Shown here one piece after another: positions 19,879 to 35,735 of a stretch of 35,735 bases of DNA (position 1 is the first letter of the stretch; each line of letters opens with the position of its first letter). The DNA is from Ruminiclostridium sp. (GTDB taxonomy: Bacteria > Bacillota > Clostridia > Oscillospirales > Ruminococcaceae). The DNA lies in the NCBI GenBank assembly GCA_017635095.1, contig JAGBMA010000147.1, positions 1 to 35,735 on the forward strand. The letters run 5' to 3'. Position numbers and translations under genes: made by a program. The notes beneath the pieces were generated by a model that was not told the origin of the DNA, made no database searches, and was given only the letters and a program-made list of their open reading frames with translations.

Positions 19879-20601
19879 TCATTCTGACCTGTGCTTTACC
19901 AGTATATGATCTATCGCATACGGTCTGTATCCGTTCATTATAAGGGCTTTAAGCTGACCGACATTGTTTGAGGAGACGCTTGTTATCAGTCTTTTTCCGC
20001 CGAGCATTCTTGTGATCTCGGGCTCCTTCTGGACAATACCGAGACCGGTGCCGCGATATTTTTCATACCCGCCGCCGAGCACAGAATAATAAGTTTTCTC
20101 GTCCTGTTTGTCCAGCACGACAAATCCTGCACCGTCATCACAGTAGGTTATCAGAAAAAACTCTGCACCCTTTTCTCTCAGATCGTTTGTCCAGTTAATA
20201 TACCTTTTTGAAGAAACACCTTTTGCAAAGAAACTGTCATTCGATATTCTGTCATTATCGAACATACCGTTTCTGATCTCGGACTGAAGCTGAGCGAAAT
20301 CCTGATCTGACATTTTTCTGTATGAAGTTTTTTCATACAGCCTTTTTTGTATCCGGCTCATTTCAACTTCGCGCAGATCATGCTCGACGTGGATCATATC
20401 TTCAATGAACTCGTACCCGTTGCTTTGAATTACTTTCAGAATGCTGCTCATTTCCGAAGGAAGTCTTACGACCGAGTATTCGCTTACGATCCTGGATAAC
20501 TTCTCATTCACCAGATCGAGCCCATCACATTTTTCGATCGTAATCTCGCTCGCTGCAACACCGAGGTTTCTTTTTTCCCAGACTGCGTCAACAATTTTCA
20601 T
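19879..20601 (-). CDS. GNAT family acyltransferase, WecD-like
   Basis: Predicted 240-residue N-acyltransferase. The C-terminal half carries the acetyl-CoA loop region (YEKYRGTGLG, about 179-188) followed by SSNNVGQLKALIMNGYRP, the usual beta-bulge and helix at the end of GNAT folds. The opening WEKRNLGVAASEI resembles acyltransferases of aminosugar pathways such as WecD, so an amino or hydroxyl group on the product may be acylated. The start overlaps the thiamine-enzyme stop by 4 bases. The last residues, KHRSE, differ from the KHC ending attached to the other repeat copy, suggesting that the insertion replaced the original end. Confidence 0.7.
   Translation of the reverse strand: MKIVDAVWEKRNLGVAASEITIEKCDGLDLVNEKLSRIVSEYSVVRLPSEMSSILKVIQSNGYEFIEDMIHVEHDLREVEMSRIQKRLYEKTSYRKMSDQDFAQLQSEIRNGMFDNDRISNDSFFAKGVSSKRYINWTNDLREKGAEFFLITYCDDGAGFVVLDKQDEKTYYSVLGGGYEKYRGTGLGIVQKEPEITRMLGGKRLITSVSSNNVGQLKALIMNGYRPYAIDHILVKHRSE
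19891..19933. repeat. 43-bp direct repeat, copy 2
   Basis: Exact copy of 18283-18325, here in place inside the 3' end of the GNAT gene. The copies bracket 1,565 bases that hold an IS fragment and an FkbM gene. Confidence 0.95.
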
Positions 20602-22429: not shown

Positions 22430-23569
22430 TCAGACAGCATATAATGTCATATCCAATATGCCTCTGCTGTTAGCATTTATTCTGAAATAAATGTCATAAT
22501 TATTGGTTTTGAATTCTTCTTTGATAAATATCGGTATAGTAAATATATCCTCTTTTAAGTGATAAATTCTTACACCCAATGTTGGTCTGTTTTTTAAGAT
22601 TTCTTTTTTACCGCCTTTGAGTGCTGCTAATTCACTGCCTTCAATATCCATAAGAATCGCACCGACATTACCGTATTTCTCGGCTAATGTGTCAATACTT
22701 ACCGTATCTATGGATTCATACTCGTCTTCATTTTCTTTTGCGGGATAAACTATTCTTGCTCCCTGTCCTCCGTTTGAATCAAAAAATATTTTACCGTCCT
22801 TTTCATGTACACCGTATTTGAGTGGTTTAACATTATTCAGATCTTTTGTTTTTTCTGCTAAAATTGCATAATTATGATCATCAGGTTCAAGTGATATAAT
22901 GTTGTTATGGCAATCAATACCTCTCAGATAATCTGATAATTCAACAGCAGTTTTGCCGTTAAAAGCGCCACATTCTAAAATATTCCCGACTGGCTTGTTT
23001 CTAAACAACAGATCATATTCATAATCGTGCAAATGATCTGTTTTCAGTACGCACAGAGCCGCAGATTCACCGGATATACAAGCGTTAAGATACTCGACCA
23101 TGACTTTTCTGGAATAATCGTCTTTCAGGCAATCATAAACAGATTGGAGAGAATTCAAATGCTCCAGGATATATTTATAATCTATAAAATCCCAGTCAAT
23201 ATAACAGTGCTCAAAATCAATTATTTCTATGCTTGGTTCGGTGTTATACAGCTTCGATATTTTATTTTTCAGTTCCTCTTCTTTTTCAACTATTGTTTCA
23301 AATCCGATTATGAGGATCGAGTCCTTAAAATCACACAATCCGCTTGTCGGATAAACACTTTCGTTTTTATTCTGATATTTGTAATATGTATCGTCTATGA
23401 CGAAGTAGTCTATATTAATACCTATTTTCTTCAAACGGTCTGAAAGAAATCCGGCATATATTCCGTTACCATACATTCCTATCTTTTTATTTGTTTTCAG
23501 CAGGTGTTGTATCTGACAATAAAACTTGTTTTTCTTATAGTTTATCTGTCTTATTAAGCTGTTCTCCAT
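22430..23569 (-). CDS. FkbM family methyltransferase, third paralogue
   Basis: Predicted 379-residue protein. A Rossmann-like MYGNGIYAGF lies near residues 32-41, the SAM motif ECGAFNGKT at 199-207, LEPD at about 227 and MDIEGSELAALKGG at 307-320. I place the start at 23569, where GGAGG lies 7 bases upstream; the open frame continues 14 codons further in a low-complexity Arg/Gly stretch that belongs to the overlapping glycosyltransferase gene. It overlaps that gene's 3' end by 35 bases. It is A/T-rich like the central FkbM gene, although here the operon context is intact. Confidence 0.85.
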   Translation of the reverse strand: MENSLIRQINYKKNKFYCQIQHLLKTNKKIGMYGNGIYAGFLSDRLKKIGINIDYFVIDDTYYKYQNKNESVYPTSGLCDFKDSILIIGFETIVEKEEELKNKISKLYNTEPSIEIIDFEHCYIDWDFIDYKYILEHLNSLQSVYDCLKDDYSRKVMVEYLNACISGESAALCVLKTDHLHDYEYDLLFRNKPVGNILECGAFNGKTAVELSDYLRGIDCHNNIISLEPDDHNYAILAEKTKDLNNVKPLKYGVHEKDGKIFFDSNGGQGARIVYPAKENEDEYESIDTVSIDTLAEKYGNVGAILMDIEGSELAALKGGKKEILKNRPTLGVRIYHLKEDIFTIPIFIKEEFKTNNYDIYFRINANSRGILDMTLYAV

Positions 23570-24524
23570 TGGGCGCCTCCTTTTCCGACCTCCTGATCTC
23601 CCTGATGACATACTGAGGTGAATTGTTTATGCATATATATATTCTTCCTATATATTCACCGATAAGTCCGAGCATTATCATTATAACGCCGCCTATCACC
23701 ATCATTATGGAGACTGTTGAGCTCCAGCCGGCCTCCATTTCCGGGTGAAAGAACAGCTTTTTTATTATGATATATATTGTATACAGAATTCCTGCCGCAG
23801 CAGTGAAGAAACCTACATATGAGCCAAGTCTCAGGGGCTTGACGGAAAATGCTGTGAATCCGTTCAGCCACAGATTGACAAGTCCCTTGAATGAGTAGCC
23901 CGATCTACCTTCAAGCCTGTCTCTGTGGGTAACGGGAACTACGCTTATGTTTCGTGTAGCTCGCAATACCAGACCTGCCATATAAGGATACGGATTCTTG
24001 TACTTTATCATCTCTTCAATGATGAATTTTCTTGCAATATAATAACTGCTTCCTTGCCTTTTTTCTCCCTTAATATCGAACATATAGTCCGACATGGCTT
24101 TGGCAAATTTTGAGCCGAGTTTCCTTATGACATTCTGATGTACTTCGCCGTATGTGGCATAAACGACATCATAACCTTTATTAAGCTCATCTAACAATTT
24201 GTAGAATTCATCGGCTGGTGTCTGACCGTCATCGTCAAGGGATATCACAAATTCGCCGTTACAGTTGTTATATCCGGCGAGCAGGGCAGAGTGCTGACCG
24301 AAATTCTTTGCAAGATCTATTCCCGTCACATGATCGTTTTTCTTTGCAAGATCGGATATCACCGACCATACATTATCCGGAGAGCAGTCATTTACAAGAA
24401 TTATCTCATAGTCATATCCGTCTCTGGTTTTCACTGTTCTTTCTATCTCATCGACGACTTTCAGTATAGTGTTCTGAGATCTGTAACATGGTATCACGAA
24501 TGATAACAGAGTATTTTTTTCCAT
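23535..24524 (-). CDS. GT2 glycosyltransferase with two C-terminal membrane helices (GtrB/ArnC-like)
   Basis: Predicted 329-residue membrane enzyme. The GT-A domain opens LLSFVIPCYRSQNTI and has the metal-binding SLDDDGQTP at about 95-103. Two hydrophobic helices follow near residues 232-258 and 267-295. This is the layout of DPM1/GtrB/ArnC enzymes that move a sugar from a nucleotide to undecaprenyl or polyprenyl phosphate at the cytoplasmic face. In this cluster it probably loads the finished unusual sugar on a lipid carrier. The start abuts the stop of the SDR gene. No flippase or oligosaccharyltransferase gene lies in the window. Confidence 0.87.
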   Translation of the reverse strand: MEKNTLLSFVIPCYRSQNTILKVVDEIERTVKTRDGYDYEIILVNDCSPDNVWSVISDLAKKNDHVTGIDLAKNFGQHSALLAGYNNCNGEFVISLDDDGQTPADEFYKLLDELNKGYDVVYATYGEVHQNVIRKLGSKFAKAMSDYMFDIKGEKRQGSSYYIARKFIIEEMIKYKNPYPYMAGLVLRATRNISVVPVTHRDRLEGRSGYSFKGLVNLWLNGFTAFSVKPLRLGSYVGFFTAAAGILYTIYIIIKKLFFHPEMEAGWSSTVSIMMVIGGVIMIMLGLIGEYIGRIYICINNSPQYVIREIRRSEKEAPNGEQLNKTDKL

Positions 24525-25274
24525 TTATCTCAATCCTCCGTCAACCCGTAATACCTGTGATGTGATGAACGACGCGTTATCTGATGCAAGAAACGCGACG
24601 GCATTTGCTATTTCGTTCGGTTCGCCCTTTCTTTTCATTATATTCATCGACAAAGCTATCTTTTCGTCTTCCTCGCTCATACTGTTTCCCATGTCTGTAG
24701 CTGTAAGCCCCGGGGCGACTGCATTAACGCGGATATTGAAAGGTCCGTATTCGACAGCAAGTCTTCTTACCATTCCGATCACCGCGGCTTTGCTTGCGCT
24801 GTATTCAATGTTCGCTCCGCCGTCAAAAGCCGCTGATGAAGAAATATAAACGATGCTTCCTTTTTTATATCTCATCATATTTCTGGATATGAGCTGAGTA
24901 AGTAGCATCTGAGAAAACAGGTTCACTTCAAAAACTTCCTTAACGGTATTCATCTTTGTCATTGCCAGCGAATTGAGCGGCAAACTTACTCCCGCATTGC
25001 AGACAAGGATATCTATCGGCACTTTTGCGCTCATGATCTCCTTTGCGCCTGAACGCACGCTCTCTTCATCTGCGAGTTCAATACATACGGGGGTGATCCT
25101 GACTCCGTATTTCTGAGAAATCGTGCCGATTAACCCGTTGAAATCCTCGGATCTGTTTCTCACGACAGCAAAGATATCTGCTCCATTCTCCGCGAAATTC
25201 TCCAGTATAGCTTTTCCTATACCCCTGTTGCAGCCGGTTATGACTGCGGTCTTGTTTTTCAGCAATTCTCCCAT
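24525..25274 (-). CDS. Short-chain dehydrogenase/reductase (module 1)
   Basis: Predicted 249-residue FabG-like SDR. It has the cofactor loop TGCNRGIG (13-20), NAGV (93-96) and the catalytic Ser146/Tyr158/Lys162 set (SSSAAF...EYSASK). It would reduce a carbonyl to an alcohol with NAD(P)H, or the reverse. It is clearly related to the second SDR in the cluster but not identical. It follows LuxC by 18 bases and is directly followed by the glycosyltransferase gene, so it may act on the aldehyde or ketone made by LuxC and the thiamine enzymes. Confidence 0.88.
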   Translation of the reverse strand: MGELLKNKTAVITGCNRGIGKAILENFAENGADIFAVVRNRSEDFNGLIGTISQKYGVRITPVCIELADEESVRSGAKEIMSAKVPIDILVCNAGVSLPLNSLAMTKMNTVKEVFEVNLFSQMLLTQLISRNMMRYKKGSIVYISSSAAFDGGANIEYSASKAAVIGMVRRLAVEYGPFNIRVNAVAPGLTATDMGNSMSEEDEKIALSMNIMKRKGEPNEIANAVAFLASDNASFITSQVLRVDGGLR

Positions 25275-25292
25275 TTCCGAAAACTTCCTTTT

Positions 25293-26537
25293 TTACTTTG
25301 ATTTATCATATACATATATCACCCGTGACATATTTTCGACCATTCTGTAACCGTCCCAGACAAATTCAAGTCCCATCGTATCTCCGATATCTACAACACG
25401 ATCAACGCCTCTCACGCCGCTTTGCCTGACGAGACCGACCACTTCACTTTTTTCGATGCCGAAAACCGCAACAGTCTGACATTGTTTTTCGAGAAACGGA
25501 ATGATCTCATCAAGATTTTTTACGGCGTACTGGAAGAAAAATCCTCCGCCGGTCTTATAGTTGAAAATGTCTGAGTCGGCTTCATTTATATCTATTACAA
25601 ACAGTTTATTATTCCGCTTGTTTATCGTTACCGGCTTATCCGACTTCATTGCAAGTTCGGTAAAATTTGATAGCTTATCTATTGCCTGGACAGGCTTCAT
25701 ATCGTATCTTTCATCTGCTTCTTTCTGAAGCGCGCCCCAGAACGTTTCACGGCATACATCAAGGTCTTCGGCCGCGATATCTCCGGTCACCCAGATCAGG
25801 ATACGCGGAGAACTGCACGCGTTCTGGTCGGAGTAATATGTGTCCGTGTAGAATTTTCTTGCAGTCTCTTCCGCAATTTCCTTTGACTTTCTCAAATATT
25901 TTTTTGCATCTATCACTGCCATAGAATACCGGTCGGCAAAGCACATTTCCACTGCTCTTGACGGTATGGGGAAACGCCGTATCTCCTTTATCGTCGCGTC
26001 TCCGCCCCATATTATCCGAAGGTCGCATACAGACGAAAGATATTCTGTAACCTGGTCACTGTGATCGTATCTGATGATGCAGATATATTTTTTTATGACC
26101 TCATGTTCCGGTTTTTCGAGAAGTTTATTTATTGCATTACAGATAATATCTACTTCTTCAAACTCTTTGTTTGATACTCTTATCACCGTTATGTTTCCTG
26201 CAAGAAGCGATGACGTCATGGATACCGCAAAGTTTACCGGAACATTGGAAGGCGCTATATGGAATGCCACACCTCTTCCGACTCTTGTATCAATATCTGT
26301 GGTCTTTTGTCTTTCTCTTTCTATGGACGCTTTTCTGATCCAGTATGCATATGACAGCACGTCCCGGTGACTTCGTATCCCTTTTATGGAAAGAAGTTCT
26401 CTTGAAAGATCGCTGAGGAAAGCCACAGCTTCGACGGAAAAAGCGGGCAGCACGGGGATCCGTCCGCATTCGGCAATAATGCCGCGATCTCCCACAAGAA
26501 ACTTTATTTTCGCTAAAACTTCATTCTGTTCACTCAT
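25293..26537 (-). CDS. LuxC-like acyl-CoA/acyl-protein reductase (module 1)
   Basis: Predicted 414-residue member of the aldehyde-dehydrogenase-like LuxC family. The region HIAPSNVPVNFAVS (93-106) matches the cofactor-binding side, and the nucleophilic cysteine lies in DQNACSSPR (C241). In bioluminescent bacteria LuxC takes an acyl group from LuxE and reduces it with NADPH to an aldehyde. No luciferase genes (luxA, luxB) are present, so the aldehyde must serve another end. It lies between LuxE (15-base gap) and an SDR. The natural acyl chain is unknown. Confidence 0.85.
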   Translation of the reverse strand: MSEQNEVLAKIKFLVGDRGIIAECGRIPVLPAFSVEAVAFLSDLSRELLSIKGIRSHRDVLSYAYWIRKASIERERQKTTDIDTRVGRGVAFHIAPSNVPVNFAVSMTSSLLAGNITVIRVSNKEFEEVDIICNAINKLLEKPEHEVIKKYICIIRYDHSDQVTEYLSSVCDLRIIWGGDATIKEIRRFPIPSRAVEMCFADRYSMAVIDAKKYLRKSKEIAEETARKFYTDTYYSDQNACSSPRILIWVTGDIAAEDLDVCRETFWGALQKEADERYDMKPVQAIDKLSNFTELAMKSDKPVTINKRNNKLFVIDINEADSDIFNYKTGGGFFFQYAVKNLDEIIPFLEKQCQTVAVFGIEKSEVVGLVRQSGVRGVDRVVDIGDTMGLEFVWDGYRMVENMSRVIYVYDKSK

Positions 26538-26552
26538 CTGTGATCCTTCTGT

Positions 26553-27680
26553 TCAAAGCTTCATCTTATCGGCATATGTGTCGCTGCAGCCGCGCAGCTC
26601 CGCACTTTTCAGCCTTCCGATTATCCTGATGTATTTACCTTTGCGTCCACACGGACAATCATCTGCACCAAGTATCATTCCCTCATCTTCCGTCAGGAGC
26701 GAGTGACCAGGGTATGAATGCGGCAGAACGGATACGGTCTGTATGATTCCTTTCTCGCCGGGAGCTTTCAGGGAAAAATCCAGCGGATCCCTTATAAAGA
26801 CATCAGAATAGTTGCTTGCGTGAAGATGACCGTATTCACATTCCGCGTAGATACAGCCGGTCTGTTCCACCATGGCGTAATGATCTATGAAATGACCGAT
26901 GCCGAAAACATCGCGCATACGGGTCTTGAAATCGTCCTGAGAGATGCTTTCGCTTACGAGTCTTTTCCAGCCCCCTCCCGTCATAAGGAAAGCGTCCGAA
27001 AGATCATAGTCCTTTATGTTCAGCACTGTCTCTTCGTTATCTGACGTGCATTTTATTGTGCCTGCAGGTTCAAAAGCCTTGTAAAAATGCTGCCATACTA
27101 TGAACGTAAAGCCGAACATTATAAAGCGCCGGCCGCTGTATTTCTGCAGAAAGTCATTTACTGCTCTTACGTTGAGGGTCATATCTTCGTTAAGCGCGTA
27201 AACTATGTCGCGTGCAGCTATCTGAAGCCCCATTATCGCGGCTCCCCTGGCGGTGAACATCTGACGGTTCCTTACGGTTTCAGCCGAGTCTATCACAAGC
27301 ATCGGCAGACGTTTTTTCCCCCAGTGATCGCTTAGTATCCGAAGCATGACTTTCTGCTGGATCATCGCGGTCTCTCTGTCAACAAAGATCTTTGATACCC
27401 TCTGACCGGTGGTACCCGATGAGGTCATTGTTTTGAACACGTTCTCCCTCGGAATGCTAAGCAGGTCAATGTTCTTGAACAGCCGCACCGGGAAAAACGG
27501 TATGTCCGACGCTGTTTCAACTTTGTTTTCATCAAACCCGGAAGCGTCCAGAAATCTCCTGTATTCTGTACAGTGTTCACGGTGAAACCGGGTCAGTTCC
27601 AGAAGCTCTTCCGTGATAAGCTTATCCTTTGATGCCATATCCATATCGTATGGCTCATGCTCGTAAAAATTCTCTATCAT
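26553..27680 (-). CDS. LuxE-like acyl-protein synthetase (module 1)
   Basis: Predicted 375-residue ATP-dependent acyl-activating enzyme of the LuxE family. The nucleotide loop is TSSGTTG (86-92). The family's ending is intact: DDCPCGRKGKY (about 340-350), GRLKSAELRGCSDTYA, with Cys365 matching the C-terminal cysteine that carries the acyl group in luciferase systems. It would adenylate a carboxylate and hand the acyl thioester to LuxC. The start overlaps the transketolase C-subunit stop by 4 bases. It is about as long as lux-operon LuxE. Confidence 0.87.
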   Translation of the reverse strand: MIENFYEHEPYDMDMASKDKLITEELLELTRFHREHCTEYRRFLDASGFDENKVETASDIPFFPVRLFKNIDLLSIPRENVFKTMTSSGTTGQRVSKIFVDRETAMIQQKVMLRILSDHWGKKRLPMLVIDSAETVRNRQMFTARGAAIMGLQIAARDIVYALNEDMTLNVRAVNDFLQKYSGRRFIMFGFTFIVWQHFYKAFEPAGTIKCTSDNEETVLNIKDYDLSDAFLMTGGGWKRLVSESISQDDFKTRMRDVFGIGHFIDHYAMVEQTGCIYAECEYGHLHASNYSDVFIRDPLDFSLKAPGEKGIIQTVSVLPHSYPGHSLLTEDEGMILGADDCPCGRKGKYIRIIGRLKSAELRGCSDTYADKMKL

Positions 27681-28648
27681 TTCAACTCACTTCTGATCTT
27701 TTCCGCTATCATCGTGCCGGTCAGTCCGGCCTGTTCCCATAAATATTTCTGAGCCCCGGCATTATAACAGAACGAATCCTGAAATCCTATGAATACCTGC
27801 CGCGGTGTGTTACAGAGCGTTGCTTTATACTCGGCTACCGCGCTTCCCATTCCGCCTATGACGCTGTGCTCTTCTATGGTGGCGATAAGCCGGTGACTGT
27901 CGAAGAGCTTTTTAAGCCCTTCCTTATCAACAGGCTTGATCGTATGCATATTCGCAATGGTGCATGAGATACCGTCCTTTTCGAGCAGCGCTGCGGCTTC
28001 AACCGCTTCATGCACCATTGATCCCGATGCGATCAGAGCCGCGTCCGTGCCCTCGCTCACAATGCTTATCTTCTCCGGTTCAAATACATAACTCTCGTCA
28101 TAAACCTGCGGACAATCCGGAACGCCGTTCAGTCTGATATAAAGCGGTCCTTTGTGTTCTGCGGCAAAATTCGCCATACAGTACGCCTCAAGGCTGTCCG
28201 CAGCGCTCATTACCGTCATTCCCGGAAGTGCCCGCATAAATGTCATATCCTCGGTAGCCCAGTGTGCTACGCCGGATCTTGCCGCGACCACGCCGGCGGC
28301 TGTACCGATAAGCTTGACGTTAAGGGCGAGATTTGAGAGGTGCTGTCTGATATGCTCAAGATCGCGTATTGTGATGAAAGAAGCATAAGTGGTCGCAAAA
28401 ACGTTATAGCCTTCCATTGCAAGACCGGCCGAAATGCCGATCATGTTCTGTTCCGCTATACCGACATTCAGAAATTTATCCGGAAACTGATCCTTGAACT
28501 TAGTCAGATTTGAAAGCTGGGCAAGGTCGGCGGTAACTACCATGAGATCATCATTCTGTTTTGCTATCTCCGGCACCGCGATTCCGAAAAATGTCGCGCG
28601 CTGGCCGAGACGCGACCATGACCTTATTGTCCCTTTTGTAATGTTCAT
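27677..28648 (-). CDS. Transketolase, C-terminal subunit
   Basis: Predicted 323-residue protein with the pyrimidine-binding and C-terminal domains of transketolase. The thiamine-activating glutamate is in GIAEQN (E66), and later parts (ARSGVAHWATEDM; HTIKPVD) match the family. It must pair with the N-terminal subunit in the next gene, overlapping by 4 bases. Split transketolases in secondary-metabolite and surface-sugar clusters transfer a two-carbon ketol unit to an aldehyde acceptor. DXP-synthase or pyruvate dehydrogenase-like roles are less likely because of the split and context. Confidence 0.88.
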   Translation of the reverse strand: MNITKGTIRSWSRLGQRATFFGIAVPEIAKQNDDLMVVTADLAQLSNLTKFKDQFPDKFLNVGIAEQNMIGISAGLAMEGYNVFATTYASFITIRDLEHIRQHLSNLALNVKLIGTAAGVVAARSGVAHWATEDMTFMRALPGMTVMSAADSLEAYCMANFAAEHKGPLYIRLNGVPDCPQVYDESYVFEPEKISIVSEGTDAALIASGSMVHEAVEAAALLEKDGISCTIANMHTIKPVDKEGLKKLFDSHRLIATIEEHSVIGGMGSAVAEYKATLCNTPRQVFIGFQDSFCYNAGAQKYLWEQAGLTGTMIAEKIRSELK

Positions 28649-29487
28649 ATCACTTTACCACCCATAAGATCGGCAAGAGCTGTATCATACTGCTCCCGGG
28701 TAATGGCTTTCTGATGCCATTCGGGTCTGTTTTCTGCAAAAGACAGACCTTTTCCTTTGACGGTATCACAAATGACAGCGTTGGGCGCAGCAGCGGATAT
28801 ACTGTAAAATGCCCTCAGCAGATCGGAGATATCATGACCGCTGCAGCCGATCGTATTGAATCCGAAAGAACTCATTTTTGCGTTCAGGTCTCCGAGCATC
28901 ATAACGTCCTCGGTCTCTCCGTCATAGCAGAGATGATTTCTGTCAATAATTGCTATAAGGTTATCAAGTCCGAACTGTTTTGCGGACATGAATGCTTCCC
29001 ACACCGAACCTTCGTTAAGCTCTCCGTCGCCCATAAGAACGTACACGTTATAGTCAATTCCCTTTTTCTTTGCTGCAAGTGCCTGTCCGACGCCGACGGA
29101 TATCGCCATTCCAAGACTGCCGCCGGAGTATTCTATGCCTATTTCCGGAGCATAGGGATATCCTATCAGCCTGCTCCCGTTGACTGCATATGATTCAAGC
29201 TCTTCCTCTTTTATAAAACCTTTCTCCGCAAGGGCAGGGAAGTGGGCGAGCGTGCAGTGGTTCTTGCTTATGAGAAGCCGGTCGCGATTGACATTCAGCG
29301 GGTCTTTCGGGTCAACTCTCAGTACTTCGCCGTACAGCACCGCCATGATCTCCATTGCGGAAAACCCGCCGCCGATATGCGAACCTTTTGCTCCGGCGGA
29401 AAGCGCCATATCAAGAGCCATTTTTCTCATGCGGACAGCCATATCCCTTATTCGTGAAACATTATCCGTGGAATGATCTAAACGCAT
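28645..29487 (-). CDS. Transketolase, N-terminal subunit
   Basis: Predicted 280-residue subunit carrying the thiamine diphosphate-binding half. It has GSHIGGGFSAMEI (35-47) with the conserved His38, the metal motif GDGELNEGSVWEA (153-165) and IDRNHL (181-186). The length is normal for split enzymes. It overlaps both neighbours: the C-subunit by 4 bases and the SDR by 10. It probably forms a heterotetramer with the C-subunit. It lies between two LuxE-LuxC-SDR modules, consistent with an aldehyde as acceptor. Confidence 0.88.
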   Translation of the reverse strand: MRLDHSTDNVSRIRDMAVRMRKMALDMALSAGAKGSHIGGGFSAMEIMAVLYGEVLRVDPKDPLNVNRDRLLISKNHCTLAHFPALAEKGFIKEEELESYAVNGSRLIGYPYAPEIGIEYSGGSLGMAISVGVGQALAAKKKGIDYNVYVLMGDGELNEGSVWEAFMSAKQFGLDNLIAIIDRNHLCYDGETEDVMMLGDLNAKMSSFGFNTIGCSGHDISDLLRAFYSISAAAPNAVICDTVKGKGLSFAENRPEWHQKAITREQYDTALADLMGGKVI

Positions 29488-30233
29488 ATCCTGCCTCCGT
29501 CTGCGATAAGTGTCTGACCTGTTATAAATGATGACCGGTCAGACGCGAGGAACAACGCACAGTTTGCTATTTCCTCAGGGCTTGCTTTTCTGTGAAGGCT
29601 GCTTCGTTCGAGGATCTTTTCGATCTCATCGTCGGATTTGTACGATCCCATTTCGGTCTCAACGAGCCCGGGGGCAATAGCGTTGACTCTTATCCCGTAC
29701 TGTCCCACCTCGTGAGACGCGGTCTTGGTTGCATATATCAGCGCGGCTTTGCTCGATCCGTATGCGAGATATCCCGGAGCTGTCTCGATGCCTCCTACGG
29801 AAGCCATATTGATGATACAGCCGCTTTTCTGCTTCATCATATTTCTAAGCACGAGCTGCATTATCTGTATCTGTGCAAAGTAGTTGATCTGGAAAACTTC
29901 CCGGAGCTTCGACATAGACGTCATAGTGAAAGACCCGCCATAGGCGATACCGGCATTGTTCACGAGCACGTCCGTCTGCTTTTTTTCCCTGATGATCCGT
30001 TGTATGCCTTCTTTGACGGCTGCCTCGTCCGAAAGATCGAAGTAAACCGGCTCTATCCACACACCATGTGCGTCGGCAAGTGTTTTTATCTCTTCTTCAA
30101 AGCCTGTGTCGGGTTTTCTTGCACAAGCCCATACATTTGCACCGCTCCGGACAAAAAGTTCAAGAACAGTCCGTCCTATCCCTCGCGCAGCGCCAGTTAT
30201 GATAACATTTTTTCCGGTAAGCAGATCGTTCAT
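29478..30233 (-). CDS. Short-chain dehydrogenase/reductase (module 2)
   Basis: Predicted 251-residue FabG-like SDR with TGAARGIG (13-20), NNAGI (92-96), Ser145, Tyr158 and Lys162 (AYGSSK), and the C-terminal FITGQTLIADGG. It shares the layout of the module 1 SDR, including the position after LuxC. It overlaps the transketolase N-subunit by 10 bases, so the two are translationally coupled; it may reduce the ketol product. It stands 45 bases after LuxC, the largest gap between genes in this half of the operon. Confidence 0.88.
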   Translation of the reverse strand: MNDLLTGKNVIITGAARGIGRTVLELFVRSGANVWACARKPDTGFEEEIKTLADAHGVWIEPVYFDLSDEAAVKEGIQRIIREKKQTDVLVNNAGIAYGGSFTMTSMSKLREVFQINYFAQIQIMQLVLRNMMKQKSGCIINMASVGGIETAPGYLAYGSSKAALIYATKTASHEVGQYGIRVNAIAPGLVETEMGSYKSDDEIEKILERSSLHRKASPEEIANCALFLASDRSSFITGQTLIADGGRICV

Positions 30234-30278
30234 GAGATCCTCCAGGAATACATTTTTGTCATATTTTCTCCGACTTCA

Positions 30279-31466
30279 TCAGAGAATGATCACTCTGCGG
30301 GACATCTCTCTTATGAGATCGTGACCGTCCCATATAAGCGAAAAATCCATTGACTTCCCCATAGGCACGATACGGTCTATGCCATGTGGTCTGCACTCTT
30401 CAAGAAGATCCGCAAGATCTTTCTTGTCAATGCCGTAGTACGTCAGTGTCTGACAGCGGATATCGCATACATTTATTATATCAGCCAGGTTTTCGATATC
30501 TTTCTCGAAGAAAAAACCGCTGTTGTATTTGTAATTCATCAGGTCATTGCCGATAACATCTGCCCTGAGCCTTGTAACAAGCATATCGGGGCTCTTTTCG
30601 AGCACTGCTTTTTTCTGCGCCGCTGCAGAATATACAGCACTGAGCTTGCCCACAGCCTGAACTGCGGACAGATCGTATTTTTCGGATACGAGCTTATGTA
30701 CTCTACCCCAGAAATCTTCTTTTGCTTCGGACTTCCTTTTGCCCTGCCAGAAAATGATGCGGGGTGAAGTACAGGCGTTCTGATCCGTATAATAGGTGTC
30801 GTTGTAGAAGTCCTGAATTACAGTATCCTTACGTTCCGCGTCAAGATACGCATCAGCATTTATGACCGCTGCCGAATGTCGGTCGGCAAACGTTATCTCC
30901 GTTGTTCTCGCGGGTATCGGGGACTGTCTCAGCCCGGCAACTGTCCCGTCTCCGCCCCAGATGACGCGTACATTGCAGACAGATGAAAATGCATCGGCTA
31001 TTTCTTTGGCAGGCGGGAACTTTACGAAAACGACATACGGAGCAAGGCTTTTGTATCCGTTGCCGAGGAGGCTGCGGACAGCATCGCTTATGATATCGAC
31101 CTGCTCAAAGGAGCGCCCCGGGAGCCGGACGATATTTGCGTTTCCCGAAAGAAGTCCGGCTGCAAAGCTGAAGGCGAAATTCACCGGAACGTTTGACGGA
31201 GTGCTGTGGAATACTATCCCCCTGCCGAGTCTTTCGGCGGCGTCATCATACTTCGCTTTCTCCTTTACAAGCGAAGCCCTGCGGCACCAGAACCCGAATG
31301 TGGCAACATCGGGGTACTGTCTTACATTCCTGAGGGCGGCGGAAAGATCGCCGAAAAAAGCGATCACTTCATCGTCGAAAGGTCTGAGCGGTCTTGCGCC
31401 CGTCATGCGTTCAACAGTTCCGGGACTGCCGATGACGTACTGTAATTCATTGAAATTTAGCTGCAT
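30279..31466 (-). CDS. LuxC-like acyl-CoA/acyl-protein reductase (module 2)
   Basis: Predicted 395-residue LuxC paralogue. HSTPSNVPVNFAFS (87-100) and the nucleophile motif DQNACTSPR (C232) correspond to those in module 1, and the C-terminal blocks (RPHGIDRIVPMGKSM; LIWDGHDL) also align. It probably reduces a LuxE-bound acyl group to an aldehyde with NADPH. Its start overlaps the LuxE gene by 20 bases. The two LuxC proteins are plainly homologous but diverged, so they may handle different acyl groups. Confidence 0.85.
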   Translation of the reverse strand: MQLNFNELQYVIGSPGTVERMTGARPLRPFDDEVIAFFGDLSAALRNVRQYPDVATFGFWCRRASLVKEKAKYDDAAERLGRGIVFHSTPSNVPVNFAFSFAAGLLSGNANIVRLPGRSFEQVDIISDAVRSLLGNGYKSLAPYVVFVKFPPAKEIADAFSSVCNVRVIWGGDGTVAGLRQSPIPARTTEITFADRHSAAVINADAYLDAERKDTVIQDFYNDTYYTDQNACTSPRIIFWQGKRKSEAKEDFWGRVHKLVSEKYDLSAVQAVGKLSAVYSAAAQKKAVLEKSPDMLVTRLRADVIGNDLMNYKYNSGFFFEKDIENLADIINVCDIRCQTLTYYGIDKKDLADLLEECRPHGIDRIVPMGKSMDFSLIWDGHDLIREMSRRVIIL

Positions 31467-32538
31467 AAGTATCGCTGCAACCCCTTATCTCTGCATTTTT
31501 CAACCTGCCGTTTATCCTGAAATACTTTCCTTTTCTTCCGCAGGGACAGTCATCTATGCCAAGTATCACGCCCTCGTCTTCGGTCAGGAGACTGTGTCCC
31601 GGGTATGACTCGGGGATCGTCGAAACGACCTGGATAACGCCTGTTTCTCCGATCCCGGCTTCGGAAAAGTCGATAGGTCTGCGGACTATGACATCGGAGA
31701 AATTGCTTGCGTGAAGATTACCGCATTCACATTCCATATAGATGCAGCCGGTCTGTTCGACCATTCCGTAGTAATCATGTATGTCGCGAAGCCCGCAGGC
31801 TTCTTCCGCTCTCTTATGGAACTCTTCGCGGCTCACAGCCTCCGATGCAAGCTTTTTCCAGCCGCCGCCGTGAAACATGGTCCCGCGGGACAGGTCGAAT
31901 GTCACTCCCTCGTTTCTGAGCCTCAGCAGCTCCTTGAAGAAGTGCTGCCATATCATGAACGTAAATCCGAAGATAAGTATCCTTTCGCCCGCGTGTTCAT
32001 GAAGAAAGGCGGATATCCCCTCTGTGTCAAGCTTCATGTCATCGTCGAGGGCGTATATCTTTTTTGAGCCGAAGATCGAAAAACCGAGTATCCCCGCGCC
32101 TCTTGCACTGAACATGGCTCTGTTCTTTACTACGGAAGGGCAGTCTATTATCATCATCGGCATCCGTCCCGATGACGTGAAATCGGAAACGATCTTTACC
32201 ATGGCTTTTTGCTGATTTGAAGATGTGGTACGGTCAAGGTAAATCTTTGACACCGCCTGTCCGGTGGTGCCGGAAGAGGTCATGGTCTTGACGATCTCTT
32301 CCTGTGGAACGGATCTCAGTTCCATTTCTTTGAACAGTCGGACAGGGAGGAAGGGGAGATCCTTGTAAGACTTCACGGGATCTGCACCAAATCCCGTGCC
32401 TTCAAGCATATTTCTGTATTCGGTGCAGTTCTTCCTGTGCAGTTCGGTCAGTTCGTTCAGCCGTTCTGTCAGAAGCTTCTCTTTTTCCTCCTTTTCAAGG
32501 CTGTACGGAGGAATGCTCAAAATATCATCAAATGTCAT
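31447..32538 (-). CDS. LuxE-like acyl-protein synthetase (module 2)
   Basis: Predicted 363-residue LuxE paralogue. It has the nucleotide loop TSSGTTG (87-93), the YYGMVEQTGCIYMECE block, DDCPCGRKGKY and the C-terminal RGCSDTYA with the candidate acyl-carrying Cys354. It would activate a free acid with ATP and pass it to the LuxC encoded next. It overlaps the thioesterase gene by 4 bases; in the luciferase system a thioesterase (LuxD) releases the acid that LuxE activates, so this neighbour is telling. Confidence 0.87.
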   Translation of the reverse strand: MTFDDILSIPPYSLEKEEKEKLLTERLNELTELHRKNCTEYRNMLEGTGFGADPVKSYKDLPFLPVRLFKEMELRSVPQEEIVKTMTSSGTTGQAVSKIYLDRTTSSNQQKAMVKIVSDFTSSGRMPMMIIDCPSVVKNRAMFSARGAGILGFSIFGSKKIYALDDDMKLDTEGISAFLHEHAGERILIFGFTFMIWQHFFKELLRLRNEGVTFDLSRGTMFHGGGWKKLASEAVSREEFHKRAEEACGLRDIHDYYGMVEQTGCIYMECECGNLHASNFSDVIVRRPIDFSEAGIGETGVIQVVSTIPESYPGHSLLTEDEGVILGIDDCPCGRKGKYFRINGRLKNAEIRGCSDTYAAKFQ

Positions 32539-33245
32539 GACAGGTTCCCTTGCAGTATCTTTGAATTCATTATCTCAGCCATTTCCTTATGATGCTCCAG
32601 AATGAAGAAGTGACCTCCCCCGAAGCCGAAGTATTCGCATTCTCCGACAAAATAACGGCTCCAAAGCTCCATGTCTTTACGGGGAGTATCTGTTTCGGAG
32701 TAAAATACGGTGGCAGGGACCGGCGTTTTCAGCGCCAGTTCTTCAAATCTGTAATTCCGTATAAGTGAATAGTCCGCGCGGTATATGGGCAGGTACATTC
32801 TCCAGAAAGCTTTATTGCCGATAAGCTTTTCGGGTATCGCGCCGAAGCTTATGGTTCTTTCCTTTATCCATTCATCGGTGCAGTCTCCGGCGTATCCTTC
32901 AAGCTCCGCCCTGGAGTGCGGCTCATGGGCTGCAAGAAACATACGGTCGGGTGCGTTTATTTCTTTTCCGCCGATTATCCTTTTCAGCACTTCTACTGCG
33001 GCTATCGCGCCCATGCTGTAACCGAAAAGGGCATACCTGCCGCCTGAATACTGATTTATAAAGGAGCCGAACAGATCGTATGCAAGTTCATCGAAATCCC
33101 GGCAGAACGCTTCTTTATGTTTTGCTCCGTGACCGGGGTATTCAAGCTTTACAAGATCATATTCGGTAAGATCTTTTTCTGTCAGATCAAAGAACGAAGC
33201 ATTCCCGCCCGCATACGAAAAACAGAAAAGCTGAGGTTTACTCAT
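32535..33245 (-). CDS. Type II thioesterase, alpha/beta hydrolase (SrfAD-like)
   Basis: Predicted 236-residue thioesterase of the surfactin/gramicidin type II class. It has the oxyanion region FSYAGGNASFF (9-19), the nucleophile GYSMG (S77), the acid in SETDTP (D186) and the histidine in GGHFFI (H212). Such enzymes hydrolyse acyl groups from phosphopantetheine carriers, for editing or release. Here it could release the acid from the carrier protein encoded two genes upstream, in the role LuxD has in bioluminescence. It overlaps both neighbours (8 and 4 bases). Confidence 0.87.
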   Translation of the reverse strand: MSKPQLFCFSYAGGNASFFDLTEKDLTEYDLVKLEYPGHGAKHKEAFCRDFDELAYDLFGSFINQYSGGRYALFGYSMGAIAAVEVLKRIIGGKEINAPDRMFLAAHEPHSRAELEGYAGDCTDEWIKERTISFGAIPEKLIGNKAFWRMYLPIYRADYSLIRNYRFEELALKTPVPATVFYSETDTPRKDMELWSRYFVGECEYFGFGGGHFFILEHHKEMAEIMNSKILQGNLS

Positions 33246-34653
33246 AATATTTTGCCAATTCCGTATAAAGTGTTTTCCCCGAATCGTTTTTCGGGATCTC
33301 GCCGATAACTATTACCCTGAATGCCGAAGGATTAAGCTTAGTTTTGTTTATTACAAAGTCGCGTACAGTTCCTGAGTACTTTTCATCGGTCACAAAAATA
33401 TACGCGTGGTCGTCCACACCGCTGCTTGCAGCTTCGATACCGAATTCACCCTTGATAAGTCTATCGAGCTCATCAAGGTTCACGCGGTTGCCGTATATCT
33501 TGAGAAAGCGCTTCCGGCGGCCTACGATATAGTAGAAGCCGTCTTCGTCAAACTGCGCCATATCTCCTGTTTCAAGCCTGCCGTGACGTTCGTCGCCGCG
33601 GATAAGATCCTCGCCGCATTCCGCGTACCCGAGCGTGACGTTTTTTCCTTCATACACAAGCTCGCCGGTCGTATATGGCTCTGTGACGGGCTTATCGTCG
33701 TCACCTATGAGAGTGAAGCTGCCGCCGGGTATCGGGATACCCATTGATCCGCGCTTTTCGACCGCTTTCTCCGGCGGCAGGTAACCCATGCGGGCTGTGG
33801 CTTCCGAAGCGCCGTACATTACCACGAAATTTATGTTGTGCTCAGCCGCGTAAGCTGCAAATTTCTCGTGAAGCTCAGGAGTGATCTTGCCGCCTGCCTG
33901 GGTCATCGTTCTCAGGCTCGGCAGATCCATACGGCAGAAGCGAAGCCTGTCGAGCATTTCGTAGGTGTACGGTACCCCGCCGAACGACGTGGCATTCTGT
34001 TCTCTGAAAAAGTTCCAGAATTCTTTCTGCATAAGGCCTTTATCCGTGAGAAGAACGGCTGCGCCGACCAGAAAGTGCGAATTAATGATCGACAGACCGT
34101 AAACATAGTTCATCGGCAATGTCGTTATCGGTCTCTCCGTGTCGTCAAGCCGGAGGTATTCCGCAATGGAACGTGCGTTCTCCGAAACATTCGTGTAGGA
34201 TTGCCTTACAAGCTTCGGAGAACCGGTGGAGCCCGATGTGGATATAAGCAGACCGAGCTCGTCATGCATGGGATATTTTACGTCATAGCCGGTTTTAAGC
34301 AGAACATAGCCGTAAGACTCATGTACTTCGGTCATGCAGGGAAAACCGCCGGTCATATCTTTCGGTATCCACAGATATTCCGGCGAATATGTTTTCAGCA
34401 GTTCACGCAGCAAAGCATCTTCGAGGTGGCTGCTCAGAAGCAGGGGCACGATGCCGTTGTTTATGAAAGCGGTGTAGCCCGACACAGAGCCGATCTCGTT
34501 CCGGCAAAGCGCGAAAACGAGACAGCGATGACCGATCTTTCCGGCGAGCAATTCTGCTTCGGCGTTCAATTCACTATAAGTGACCCGAAAGCCGGATTCG
34601 TCGATAAGCGCAGGCGCGTTCCCGTGCTCATCAAGATCCCAGATCCTTCCCAT
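33238..34653 (-). CDS. AMP-forming acyl/amino-acid ligase (ANL superfamily)
   Basis: Predicted 471-residue adenylating enzyme. It has the ATP loop STSGSTGSPK (138-147), YGASEATARM around residue 270, the hinge block GRRKRFLKIYGNRVN near residue 390 and the catalytic lysine K460 in PKNDSGKTLY. It is the length of a stand-alone adenylation domain. It most likely loads an acid on the carrier protein encoded directly upstream (1-base overlap). I cannot read the substrate specificity; a hydroxy acid, amino acid or fatty acid are all possible. Confidence 0.86.
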   Translation of the reverse strand: MGRIWDLDEHGNAPALIDESGFRVTYSELNAEAELLAGKIGHRCLVFALCRNEIGSVSGYTAFINNGIVPLLLSSHLEDALLRELLKTYSPEYLWIPKDMTGGFPCMTEVHESYGYVLLKTGYDVKYPMHDELGLLISTSGSTGSPKLVRQSYTNVSENARSIAEYLRLDDTERPITTLPMNYVYGLSIINSHFLVGAAVLLTDKGLMQKEFWNFFREQNATSFGGVPYTYEMLDRLRFCRMDLPSLRTMTQAGGKITPELHEKFAAYAAEHNINFVVMYGASEATARMGYLPPEKAVEKRGSMGIPIPGGSFTLIGDDDKPVTEPYTTGELVYEGKNVTLGYAECGEDLIRGDERHGRLETGDMAQFDEDGFYYIVGRRKRFLKIYGNRVNLDELDRLIKGEFGIEAASSGVDDHAYIFVTDEKYSGTVRDFVINKTKLNPSAFRVIVIGEIPKNDSGKTLYTELAKYYE

Positions 34654-34895
34654 CAGAATTCCACGTTGTATTCCGGCTTTGCGAGGAGCTCCATGCCCTT
34701 TTCGTAAGAGCTCAGATCAATGATATCGTCGGTGTCCATCATGATATCAAATGCATCTTCAAGCGCGGCTATAAGGCTCATGTGTCCTACCGAGTCCCAT
34801 GCCGTGATATCCTGATATTTAAGTCCCGCAAGCTGATCTTTTGTGATCTCGAATGTCTCAATAAAAGCCTGGTCATATTTTTCTCTGTTGCTCAT
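34653..34895 (-). CDS. Acyl carrier protein
   Basis: Predicted 80-residue carrier protein. WDSVGHMSLI (33-42) contains the serine (S35) that takes the 4'-phosphopantetheine arm, and the acidic helix-rich composition is typical. The sequence differs enough from AcpP-type proteins of fatty acid synthesis to suggest a dedicated carrier. It is the first gene of the operon; GGAGG lies about 8 bases before the ATG. Its only operon partner for loading is the ligase downstream. Confidence 0.9.
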   Translation of the reverse strand: MSNREKYDQAFIETFEITKDQLAGLKYQDITAWDSVGHMSLIAALEDAFDIMMDTDDIIDLSSYEKGMELLAKPEYNVEF

Positions 34896-34955: not shown

Positions 34956-34984
34956 ATTATACAATATACAGCCGGTTTTGTCAA
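34956..34984 (-). promoter_or_regulatory. Perfect sigma-A promoter of the modification operon
   Basis: On the minus strand, consensus TTGACA (34979-34984), a 17-bp spacer and consensus TATAAT (34956-34961). It lies about 60 bases before the acyl carrier protein gene. It implies strong housekeeping expression, unlike the sigma-D type promoter of the adjacent flagellin. Confidence 0.9.
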
Positions 34985-35620: not shown

Positions 35621-35735
35621 ATGGGAATGGTAGTACAGCACAACATTAGCGCAATGAACGCAAACGAGGCTATGCGTAAGAACGTAGCAGGTCTCAAGAA
35701 GCAGACTGAAAAGCTCTCCACAGGTTACAACATCA
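35621..35735 (+). CDS. Flagellin, N-terminal part (runs off the window)
   Basis: The first 38 codons encode MGMVVQHNISAMNANEAM, then GLKKQTEKLSTGYNI, which is the strongly conserved N-terminal D0 helix of bacterial flagellin that packs the filament core and is read for secretion by the flagellar type III apparatus. AAGGAGG lies 7 bases before the ATG. The gene continues beyond base 35,735. It is preceded by a sigma-D promoter and a structured leader. The surface-exposed region that is normally glycosylated is outside the window. Confidence 0.95.
   Translation, partial: MGMVVQHNISAMNANEAMRKNVAGLKKQTEKLSTGYNI

Follow-up and report, generated by a model that had tools for sequence, protein, structure and literature searches.

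A predicted flagellin-glycosylation operon with two LuxE-LuxC pairs and an altered split transketolase in Ruminiclostridium sp.

Genes of the operon

The window analysed here is the whole stretch of 35,735 nt from Ruminiclostridium sp. (GCA_017635095.1, contig JAGBMA010000147.1, positions 1 to 35,735, forward strand). Eight genes lie on its minus strand at 24525..32538, in the order LuxE_A, LuxC_A, SDR_A, TktN, TktC, LuxE_B, LuxC_B and SDR_B, with overlaps or gaps of 15-45 bp between them. Their coordinates, order and strand agree with the preliminary description of this DNA, and their Pfam scores are far over the gathering cut-offs (24.9 bits for LuxE and 21 bits for LuxC). A profile scan of 20 window proteins, which covered the whole operon, and of two further proteins gave no match to luciferase families. 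The operon is not a luciferase (lux) operon: the luciferase genes found with luxCDE are absent from all of it, as had been described. In all likelihood, the eight genes form the middle of an operon for the glycosylation of flagellin or another surface structure.

The acyl-protein synthetases LuxE_A (31447..32538) and LuxE_B (26553..27680) match PF04443 at 174.5 and 178.8 bits, and the acyl reductases LuxC_A (30279..31466) and LuxC_B (25293..26537) match PF05893 at 84.4 and 100.8 bits. Both LuxE proteins carry the adenylate loop SSGTTG and the C-terminal cysteine in RGCS, and both LuxC proteins have the nucleophilic cysteine in DQNAC, so the earlier observation that the catalytic motifs are kept holds for all four. 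These motifs are nearly invariant among relatives (RGC in 79/79 LuxE rows, as RGCS in 78 and RGCG in 1; an SSGTTG-like loop in 76/79; DQxAC in 75 of 76 LuxC rows). LuxE_A and LuxC_B, the two that were searched, align with the solved LuxE-LuxC complex 7xc6 at the motif cysteines. Judged by profile and motif, both LuxE belong to the family, with a predicted acyl-accepting C-terminal cysteine, and both LuxC belong to the acyl reductases, with the nucleophilic cysteine. The A and B copies share 52% (LuxE), 37% (LuxC) and 41% (SDR) identity, and LuxE_A and LuxE_B fall in separate clades of the LuxE tree (support 100/100); the two LuxE are old paralogues and not recent duplicates, in line with the divergence reported before.

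TktN (28645..29487) is the ThDP-binding chain of a split transketolase (PF00456, Transketolase_N, 116.2 bits; 6yak, E 1e-55), and TktC (27677..28648) is the Pyr and C-terminal chain (PF02779, Transket_pyr, 93.9 bits; PF02780, Transketolase_C, 89.9 bits; 6yaj, E 5e-59). TktN keeps the equivalents of His26, His66 and His261 and has Tyr at the His100 position. The window's TktC has Ala and Ser at the positions of His461 and Asp469 of E. coli TktA. The equivalents of both residues are absent from 41/41 island TktC rows (the window and 40 from other loci), whereas 17/17 housekeeping transketolase rows keep both; the catalytic Glu411 and His473 are retained in all 41 island rows. The two chains make up a split-type transketolase that has its catalytic Glu and His but has lost two residues of a sugar-phosphate transketolase, the His that binds phosphate and the Asp on the acceptor side. 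In the E. coli enzyme, the H461S substitution raises activity towards glycolaldehyde and propionaldehyde, and D469T and D469A raise it towards propionaldehyde (PMC3657141). Elsewhere in the genome, Transketolase_N is matched once more, on contig C178. The FabG-like ketoreductases SDR_A (29478..30233; PF13561, 203 bits; YGSSK), which is linked to TktN-TktC, and SDR_B (24525..25274; 182 bits; YSASK) belong to a set of SDR matches that score 162-203 bits.

Beyond the eight genes described earlier, the co-directional run includes three upstream genes, in the order ACP, ligase and thioesterase, and several downstream. The acyl carrier protein (34653..34895, minus strand) had no Pfam match on its own; a profile built from its alignment matches solved ACPs (best E 7e-5), and Ser35, in DSVGHM, is invariant in an alignment of 18 sequences that includes the window's own. 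A putative sigma-70-type promoter (34956..34984, minus strand) precedes the ACP gene by some 60 nt, with a 12/12 consensus match, the only such site among 37 in the scan, where shuffles gave a mean of 36.2 sites of any score. The AMP-forming ligase (33238..34653, minus strand; PF00501, 130 bits) is probably an acyl-ACP ligase, and none of the 25 NCBIfam subfamily models listed for it exceeded its cut-off. It is followed by a type II-like thioesterase (32535..33245, minus strand; PF00975, 89.8 bits).

After SDR_B come six minus-strand genes. The first is a GT2 glycosyltransferase of ArnC/PgfS-like, Und-P type (23535..24524; PF00535; best NCBIfam model ArnC, with 173 bits against a cut-off of 529). 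A FkbM methyltransferase (22430..23611; PF05050), a YerE/JanthE-like ThDP carboligase (20598..22415) and a GNAT-type acyltransferase (19879..20601) follow. The last of these had no Pfam match; when 12 sequences were combined into a profile, it matched GNATs (best E 1.2e-5) and, weakly, TDP-fucosamine acetyltransferase (E 0.033). Two more FkbM methyltransferases close the run (18647..19804 and 17109..18236; both PF05050), and the 410-bp gap before the second makes its membership of the operon unsure.

The flagellin gene and the carboligase neighbourhood

At the end of the window an ATG at 35621 opens a plus-strand flagellin gene (35621..35735) that is divergent from the operon and runs off the sequence. 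Its N-terminus, read from the DNA by eye, is identical to that of a 527-aa flagellin on contig C4; the 34 residues score 22.6 bits against PF00669, below the cut-off. The last 140 bp of the window are identical to the end of one other contig, C4, in a unique exact overlap, and the C84-C4 join rests on this end overlap in an assembly of 236 contigs with 4.18% contamination. C4 carries the whole flagellin gene, then GT2, an unknown gene, RfbF, RfbG, GT1, RfbH, two epimerase-type genes, radical-SAM genes and FkbM.

Among solved structures, the ThDP enzyme scores highest with 8rph (334 bits), which is JanthE (PMC12188165); the next is an acetolactate synthase (218 bits). These scores suggest that it is closer to YerE/JanthE than to acetolactate synthase, and Pfam and NCBIfam give it the name of the wider family only. 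Its ThDP-binding motif reads GEG, against GDG in 11 relatives read and CDG in JanthE (PMC12247030). The related ErwE, which acts on CDP-4-keto-3,6-dideoxyglucose, has a preference for 4-hydroxy-2-oxo acids (PMC12247030, section 6). A DmpG/HMGL-type aldolase with an extra C-terminal domain (15429..17042, plus strand; PF00682; matches to 3dxi and 4-hydroxy-2-oxovalerate aldolases) is convergent with the operon. Its homologues adjoin the ThDP gene in loci L064 (55%) and L105 (61%). In L108 an HpcH/HpaI aldolase lies three genes past the ThDP gene, and L106 has a gene of equal length at the same place.

Homologues of RfbF, RfbG and RfbH, the set expected for a branched CDP-3,6-dideoxyhexose, appear to accompany the ThDP enzyme here through the C4 join, and they are contiguous in L064 (Acutalibacter sp. 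1XD8-33). There a single contig carries flagellins and the run SDR_A-TktN-TktC-LuxE_B-LuxC_B-SDR_B-aldolase-ThDP-ACP-ligase-TE-LuxE_A-LuxC_A-RfbF-RfbG-RfbH. L104 (Flintibacter muris) resembles it: RfbF and RfbH are present, an aldolase was not matched, and RfbG has no match between the two Rfb genes. Among the contigs checked, close linkage of the ThDP gene to RfbF/G/H was seen in the window's island (via the overlap), L064 and L104; L079 has RfbF and RfbG nearby and no RfbH match in its genome. The association of RfbH with the ThDP gene is weak in the 40 of 80 loci that entered the count (8/13 genomes with a ThDP gene near LuxE, 10/27 without).

Because the flagellin gene is divergent from the operon, the overlapping contig brings in RfbF/G/H, and a YerE/JanthE-like carboligase and a DmpG-type aldolase are present, we read the locus as a putative flagellin glycosylation island whose glycan genes adjoin flagellin and whose glycan is predicted to be on flagellin. 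A flagellin match is absent from the genomes of L103, L106, L108, L043, L099 and L041, the assemblies of which may be incomplete; the machinery is therefore not flagellin-specific.

Gene order across related LuxE loci

We compared 80 related LuxE loci, counting over the stretch examined at each; 63 of them are at least 12 kb long. The preliminary description treated the eight genes as two LuxE-LuxC-SDR modules flanking a transketolase. The modules as drawn are not a natural unit because that exact order occurs in 0/80 loci. Two other units recur, namely ACP-ligase-(thioesterase)-LuxE_A-LuxC_A and SDR-TktN-TktC(-LuxE_B-LuxC_B-SDR), so that SDR_A accompanies the transketolase, and an ACP and a ligase accompany LuxE_A-LuxC_A.

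A transketolase lies near LuxE in 43/80 loci, all 13 loci with LuxE_B carry one, and SDR, TktN and TktC follow one another in 34/80 with no other query-panel gene in between. It is probable that the island transketolase uses the LuxE/LuxC aldehyde. An enzyme that bypasses this aldehyde is in our view improbable; its C2 unit would go to a carrier or, as has been suggested for miharamycin, to a keto-sugar, and LuxE/LuxC would make a different group. Such keto-sugar branching by split transketolases has been proposed in Streptomyces clusters (PMC12247030, section 9), and 37/80 LuxE loci have no transketolase in the stretch examined. However, TktN-TktC is contiguous with and directly before LuxE_B-LuxC_B in 8 loci, and the order LuxE-LuxC-SDR-TktN-TktC also recurs, in 4 loci.

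The two LuxE-LuxC pairs might also serve separate residues of one glycan, the A pair an N-acyl group and the B pair a branched-sugar donor, the operon being two pathways concatenated. We regard this as possible, short of probable. It agrees with the separate clades, with the absence of the exact order, with the occurrence of LuxE_A without LuxE_B in 67/80 loci within the stretches examined, and with that of LuxE_B without LuxE_A in the examined parts of L099, L103, L105, L106 and L108. Nevertheless, the contiguity of TktN-TktC with the B pair and the union of both pairs in one run (the window, L064 and L104) also fit one linear route.

Somewhat less likely is a route in which the chain stays on ACP. 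The ligase would load a di- or hydroxy-acid by one of its carboxyls, LuxE/LuxC would reduce the other, transketolase and SDR would extend it, GNAT (elsewhere a PglD-type enzyme) would move the polyhydroxy acyl group onto an amino sugar, and FkbM would methylate it. A known parallel comes from Treponema denticola, whose flagellin glycan bears a 2-methoxy-4,5,6-trihydroxyhexanoyl group. The mass of the Treponema flagellin glycan is given as 450.2 Da (PMC9481697). ACP (62/80 loci) and ligase (69/80) are common near LuxE; one DegT-type protein cluster occurs in 27 loci, one PglD-type in 17, GNAT in 14, and a WecE-type aminotransferase together with GNAT in 6. Five loci (L041, L042, L048, L057 and L073) unite GNAT, SDR, TktN, TktC, ACP, ligase, LuxE and LuxC, and a plasmid of Rhizobium anhuiense has TktN, TktC, an acyl-ACP-type acyltransferase, an ACP-like gene, ligase, DegT, LuxE and LuxC. 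On the other hand, the scan of window proteins showed no aminotransferase, the WecE homologue of this genome being on another contig (C173), and the ThDP enzyme, the aldolase and RfbF/G/H are left unexplained.

Among the loci of 12 kb or more, 18/63 have LuxE but lack, in the stretch examined, all four carbon-carbon enzymes that were sought; the aldehyde therefore has other fates too. In the Lelliottia loci L091 and L093, TktN-TktC lies beside ligase-LuxE-LuxC, and the LuxE of L091 is about 12 kb from flagellins.

Proposed route and comparison with known systems

The preliminary description had envisaged a stepwise route that activates an acid, reduces it, lengthens it by a ketol unit and reduces it again, possibly twice, to make a sugar-like or polyol group that is branched or of higher carbon number. 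The direction of this proposal, taken as a route to a surface glycan, is supported by the gene context, the recurrent SDR-TktN-TktC order, the altered transketolase, the flagellin gene and the ThDP and Rfb homologues; the repetition is not. We infer both the order of steps and the product from gene content. Ligase, ACP and thioesterase would handle a small carboxylic acid, which LuxE_A would activate and LuxC_A reduce to an aldehyde. The dedicated split transketolase would extend this aldehyde, which bears no phosphate, by a C2 ketol, and SDR_A would reduce the ketone formed. LuxE_B/LuxC_B would supply another aldehyde, made either from that chain or from a different acid. Addition of pyruvate by the DmpG-type aldolase would yield a 4-hydroxy-2-oxo acid. 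This acid may be decarboxylated by the YerE/ErwE-like enzyme and joined to the 4-keto carbon of CDP-4-keto-3,6-dideoxyhexose, after which SDR_B would reduce the ketone that this creates. The resulting 3,6-dideoxy sugar would be branched and of higher carbon number, attached to flagellin and probably O-methylated by the FkbM enzymes. As a whole, a flagellin-glycosylation operon with an acid-derived branched sugar is our best explanation, held at slightly less than even confidence, and a branched CDP-3,6-dideoxyhexose as the product is about equally credible; the exact order of the steps is unlikely to be right throughout. The rival readings are not all exclusive of this explanation.

The substrate of LuxE/LuxC might instead be a fatty acid, from which the transketolase would make a lipid-like ketol or triol attached to the glycan. 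LuxE and LuxC of luminous bacteria use fatty acids as substrates, and loss of His461 and Asp469 would admit aliphatic aldehydes too. The LuxE/LuxC part of such islands is already in print for flagellin glycosylation in Aeromonas group II and Enterobacteriaceae, where these genes are read as fatty-acid genes for a liposugar component (PMC7874193, PMC4875605). The present context is, however, one of sugar-nucleotide, methyltransferase and YerE-like genes, and KASIII is found in 6/80 loci, so we think a lipid product improbable here.

What is new is the evidence from the island transketolase C-chains. LuxE/LuxC together with a dedicated transketolase altered at two of the positions that engineers have changed offers an alternative to the lipid reading, namely acid-derived aldehydes that become polyol or branched sugar chains. 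More broadly, and still tentatively, bacteria of several phyla may build surface-sugar parts from carboxylic acids and not from sugar phosphates, with LuxE/LuxC aldehydes, interchangeable carbon-carbon enzymes (altered split transketolase, YerE-like carboligase with pyruvate aldolase, NeuB-type synthase) and SDR reduction, here yielding a branched higher-carbon sugar on flagellin. If the alternative to the lipid reading is right, it would explain a widespread gene set (the transketolase is in 43/80 of these LuxE loci), predict that named bacterial strains have new glycans on their flagellin, and provide natural transketolases for non-phosphorylated aldehydes.

The island transketolase has the two-chain layout and catalytic residues of the split-gene enzyme of Carboxydothermus hydrogenoformans (6yak/6yaj; PMC7661550), but the THAG...GED segment of 6yaj, which holds the His461 and Asp469 positions, is replaced. 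YerE, ErwE and JanthE and the yersiniose, erwiniose and caryophyllose pathways resemble the present locus in three respects: JanthE is the solved structure closest to its ThDP enzyme, RfbF/G/H homologues are on the overlapping contig, and a pyruvate-aldolase-type gene lies beside the operon. The products of those pathways are in LPS or cell-envelope glycans, and the sections of the source that describe them make no mention of donor synthesis by LuxE/LuxC or transketolase (PMC12247030); our literature search found no flagellin example of yersiniose-, erwiniose- or caryophyllose-type sugars. The LuxC-LuxE fatty acid reductase of luminous bacteria (7xc6) is homologous, and its acyl-cysteine motifs are kept here, but the match is remote (55.6 bits for LuxE_A and 33.2 bits for LuxC_B) and the operon differs in its sugar context and its upstream ACP and ligase. 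The islands of Aeromonas group II and Enterobacteriaceae share ACP, FabG-type SDR, AMP-ligase, LuxE and LuxC with the present one and, in Aeromonas, a GT2 gene downstream of luxC; one LuxE is named there, and the word transketolase is absent from the main texts (PMC7874193, PMC4875605). Compared with these islands, the Ruminiclostridium operon has in addition a dedicated split transketolase, a second LuxE/LuxC pair and a YerE-like enzyme.

The operon and its flagellin island

The eight genes LuxE_A, LuxC_A, SDR_A, TktN, TktC, LuxE_B, LuxC_B and SDR_B (24525–32538, minus strand) lie in the places and belong to the families reported by the preliminary description, and all score far above the Pfam cut-offs. 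They belong to a longer run that opens with an ACP gene at 34895 and extends to the end of a GNAT gene at 19879, its genes overlapping or separated by very little. Two FkbM methyltransferase genes lie beyond the GNAT gene, the first 74 bp on and the second after a further interval of 410 bp, and some 60 nt ahead of the ACP gene there is a perfect match to the sigma-70 consensus. Searched singly, neither the ACP nor the GNAT protein had a Pfam hit; profiles made from their relatives matched solved ACPs and GNATs. The nucleotide loop and C-terminal cysteine of LuxE and the nucleophilic cysteine of LuxC, also described earlier, were recovered as SSGTTG and an RGC-type cysteine in both LuxE proteins and as DQNAC in both LuxC proteins, and YxxxK is kept in both SDRs. 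Because these catalytic residues are kept and LuxE_A and LuxC_B have clear solved relatives in the two chains of 7xc6, nothing in the sequences suggests that these are dead genes. Over the whole window, neither Rfam at gathering scores nor a tRNA scan gave a match. An ORF at 13803–14822 (plus strand) has a Phage_min_cap2 Pfam match of 39.7 bits, which covers about 60 residues only.

Divergent to the operon, a gene with a flagellin-type N-terminus starts at 35621, closely preceded by AAGGAGG, and continues past the window end. The last 140 bp (35596–35735) form an exact end-to-end overlap with C4, another contig of the same assembly, and occur nowhere else in the assembly. The flagellin gene spans this join and is complete (527 aa) on C4. 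The join, which rests on assembly ends, is likely. Beyond the flagellin, C4 carries a GT2, a gene that matches no Pfam family, homologues of RfbF and RfbG, a GT1, an RfbH homologue and two epimerase-type genes, and further on radical-SAM genes, an FkbM gene and a second GT2. By its sequence, the operon is a predicted flagellin island. In the same island, RfbH and an RmlC-family epimerase are followed downstream by a row of four genes that resemble one another at the N-terminus (C4 54830–58961; 8831–12962 of locus L123); the first and last, the two that were scanned, are radical SAM/SPASM genes.

Recurrent units and distribution among related loci

A LuxE scan of the genome_contigs collection (84,980 species by its description) with two LuxE peptide patterns yielded 120 relatives, and the analysis used the 80 best loci, a selection that leans to near relatives. 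Each of these loci was searched for the 17 operon proteins; the loci end at 10-kb flanks or contig ends, so that presence counts are lower bounds. Among these best 80 of 120, the AMP-ligase was present in at least 69, ACP in 62, SDR in 57, transketolase in 43, thioesterase (TE) in 24 and the YerE-like enzyme in 13. Gene order here means that no other gene of the query panel intervenes; unrelated genes may do so. SDR-TktN-TktC occurred in order in 34/80 loci, TktN-TktC-LuxE-LuxC in 8 and LuxE-LuxC-SDR-TktN-TktC in 4. The complete eight-gene order was found in 0 of the 80 within the flanks or contig ends, and two LuxE-LuxC-SDR modules, as first proposed, did not hold as a unit. Of the 63 loci that span 12 kb or more (again among the best 80 of 120), 18 showed none of the carbon-carbon enzymes looked for.

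The two copies are diverged, as noted previously, and recent module duplication was rejected: identity between them is 52% for LuxE, 37% for LuxC and 41% for SDR, and a LuxE tree of 81 rows separated A (67) from B (14) with full support. The tree covers LuxE only. Transketolase was present in 13/13 loci with a B-type LuxE versus 27/52 loci of 12 kb or more that lack B (best 80 of 120). On these order counts, the transketolase association and the A/B split, the operon is better read as three units: ACP-ligase-TE-LuxE_A-LuxC_A, SDR_A-TktN-TktC, and a LuxE_B-LuxC_B-SDR_B unit that travels with transketolase. Among 41 closely related genomes, the window's own included, LuxE of at least 50% identity occurred in only two, the window's own and G020, and no transketolase match was found in the stretch around the G020 LuxE.

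Two other gene families were observed at these loci. A NeuB-type synthase with at least 45% identity to that of L031 stands at LuxE in 11 of the best 80 of 120 loci (L031, L034, L035, L037, L050, L052, L055, L065, L069, L079 and L083) and may be another aldehyde-using enzyme. In 10/80 loci of the same set (L034 12265–13254 and nine others), LuxC is closely followed by a gene of the lactate/malate dehydrogenase family, which may hint at a 2-hydroxy acid as the acid used.

The relatives come from Bacillota, Bacteroidota, Synergistota, Melainabacteria-type bacteria and Pseudomonadota, together with 13 records of a plasmid collection from Rhizobium, Ponticoccus, Deinococcus and Nonomuraea (four inspected). 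No match to the ThDP enzyme was obtained in that collection at 1e-60. A flagellin-only role was rejected: among the genomes behind 20 loci chosen from the 80, 14 had a flagellin match and six had none, so the machinery also serves other surface glycans. Flagellin lies on the LuxE contig, recognised by its length, at six loci (L064, L104, L105, L079, L050 and L091) and within the flank of two more (L063 and L066); this linkage is a lower bound from picked flagellin contigs of 13 genomes. Plasmid pRA_T24_2 of Rhizobium anhuiense T24 (L183 2167–14350) carries TktN, TktC, an acyltransferase, an ACP-like gene, a ligase, a GT, DegT, LuxE, LuxC, an SDR, a GMC oxidoreductase and FabZ, and may represent a non-polysaccharide use of the gene set. 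Genes for a siderophore receptor and for an amino acid transporter stand next to this cluster.

The transketolase active site

Island chains were aligned to the E. coli TktA sequence; the Arg358, Ser385 and Arg520 columns were badly aligned and were excluded. Glu411 and His473 are kept in 41/41 island chains, and His26, His66 and His261 in 40/40. The equivalents of His461 and Asp469 are absent from all 41; the window has Ala and Ser at these sites, and the Rhizobium anhuiense plasmid enzyme has Gly and Leu. In contrast, both residues are kept in 17/17 housekeeping rows, defined by a 50% identity line among matches in frames of up to 600 aa. These rows are the window genome's own copy and 16 loci from 14 of 17 genomes searched, with two rows each from G058 and G071; the two from G071, L167 and L171, may belong to a single gene. 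The window's genome has one other Transketolase_N match, on a different contig and likewise split. Below the line, L166 (47% identity) keeps the His and Asp, and the other 13 rows lack the pair. Position His100 is variable (His in 23/40 TktN rows) and Asp155 is replaced by Asn in 5/40, and on this variation some island transketolases may differ in cofactor or donor binding.

According to one study of the E. coli enzyme (PMC3657141), His461 is linked to phosphate binding; the H461S variant is more active on glycolaldehyde and propionaldehyde, D469T and D469A are more active on propionaldehyde, and D469S has altered kinetics with that substrate. A D469T-containing series reportedly shifts acceptor use away from phosphorylated aldehydes and towards aliphatic and aromatic ones (PMC5073344). 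Taken with these variants, the loss of both residues fits, as a correlation, a natural acceptor that would not be a sugar phosphate, for example the LuxC aldehyde. The acid-aldehyde-ketol direction proposed initially is partly supported and sharpened by this loss and by the recurrent SDR-TktN-TktC order, but not in its two-module layout.

Possible use of the chain and comparison with known systems

The ThDP enzyme (20598–22415, minus strand) is a YerE/JanthE-like carboligase with JanthE as its best solved relative. Its ThDP motif reads GEG, versus GDG in the 11 relatives read; JanthE has CDG there, and ErwE, a characterised relative, joins functionalised 4-hydroxy-2-oxo acids to CDP-4-keto-3,6-dideoxyglucose (PMC12247030). 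A DmpG/HMGL-type aldolase lies near the operon end (15429–17042, plus strand); its C-terminal ~240 aa are conserved, and a weak NCBIfam SteA match covers 330–388. In L064 and L105 its homologues (55% and 61%) are immediate neighbours of the ThDP gene, and in L108 an HpcH/HpaI aldolase stands three genes beyond the ThDP gene. RfbF, RfbG and RfbH homologues, which we take to be the route to a keto-sugar acceptor, are on C4 for the window's island and contiguous in L064. From the ErwE parallel, the aldolase beside the ThDP gene and the RfbF/G/H linkage, a branched higher-carbon sugar is our best single guess for the product.

Against this product, the counts do not support a general partnership of RfbH with the ThDP enzyme: RfbH is present in 8/13 genomes with a ThDP gene near LuxE versus 10/27 without (40 of the 80 loci). 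A second YerE/AHAS-like match (31%) was observed shortly after RfbH in a Flintibacter muris contig (L152 17590–18999, contig ~313589–314998).

The chain might instead stay on the ACP and go onto an amino sugar as an N-acyl group. This use is favoured by many loci, which carry aminotransferase and acyltransferase genes instead, and a Treponema flagellin glycan reportedly bears a hexanoyl group.

LuxE and LuxC of luminous bacteria act on fatty acids. Published flagellin islands of Aeromonas and enterobacteria that contain ACP, SDR, ligase, LuxE and LuxC have been read as fatty-acid/liposugar genes (PMC7874193, PMC4875605); the word transketolase is in neither main text, whereas the window's island has a split transketolase. 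No paper that places LuxE/LuxC and transketolase in one glycan cluster was found in an open-licence library. Neither LuxE nor transketolase occurs in one Geobacillus flagellin island paper, and no LuxE-type gene was found for the Shewanella sfm cluster in the accessible part of its description (PMC3765264). Split transketolases have been proposed for sugar branching in Streptomyces (PMC12247030). The known frame is that of surface and flagellin glycan islands, and the chemistry proposed here is unusual and testable.
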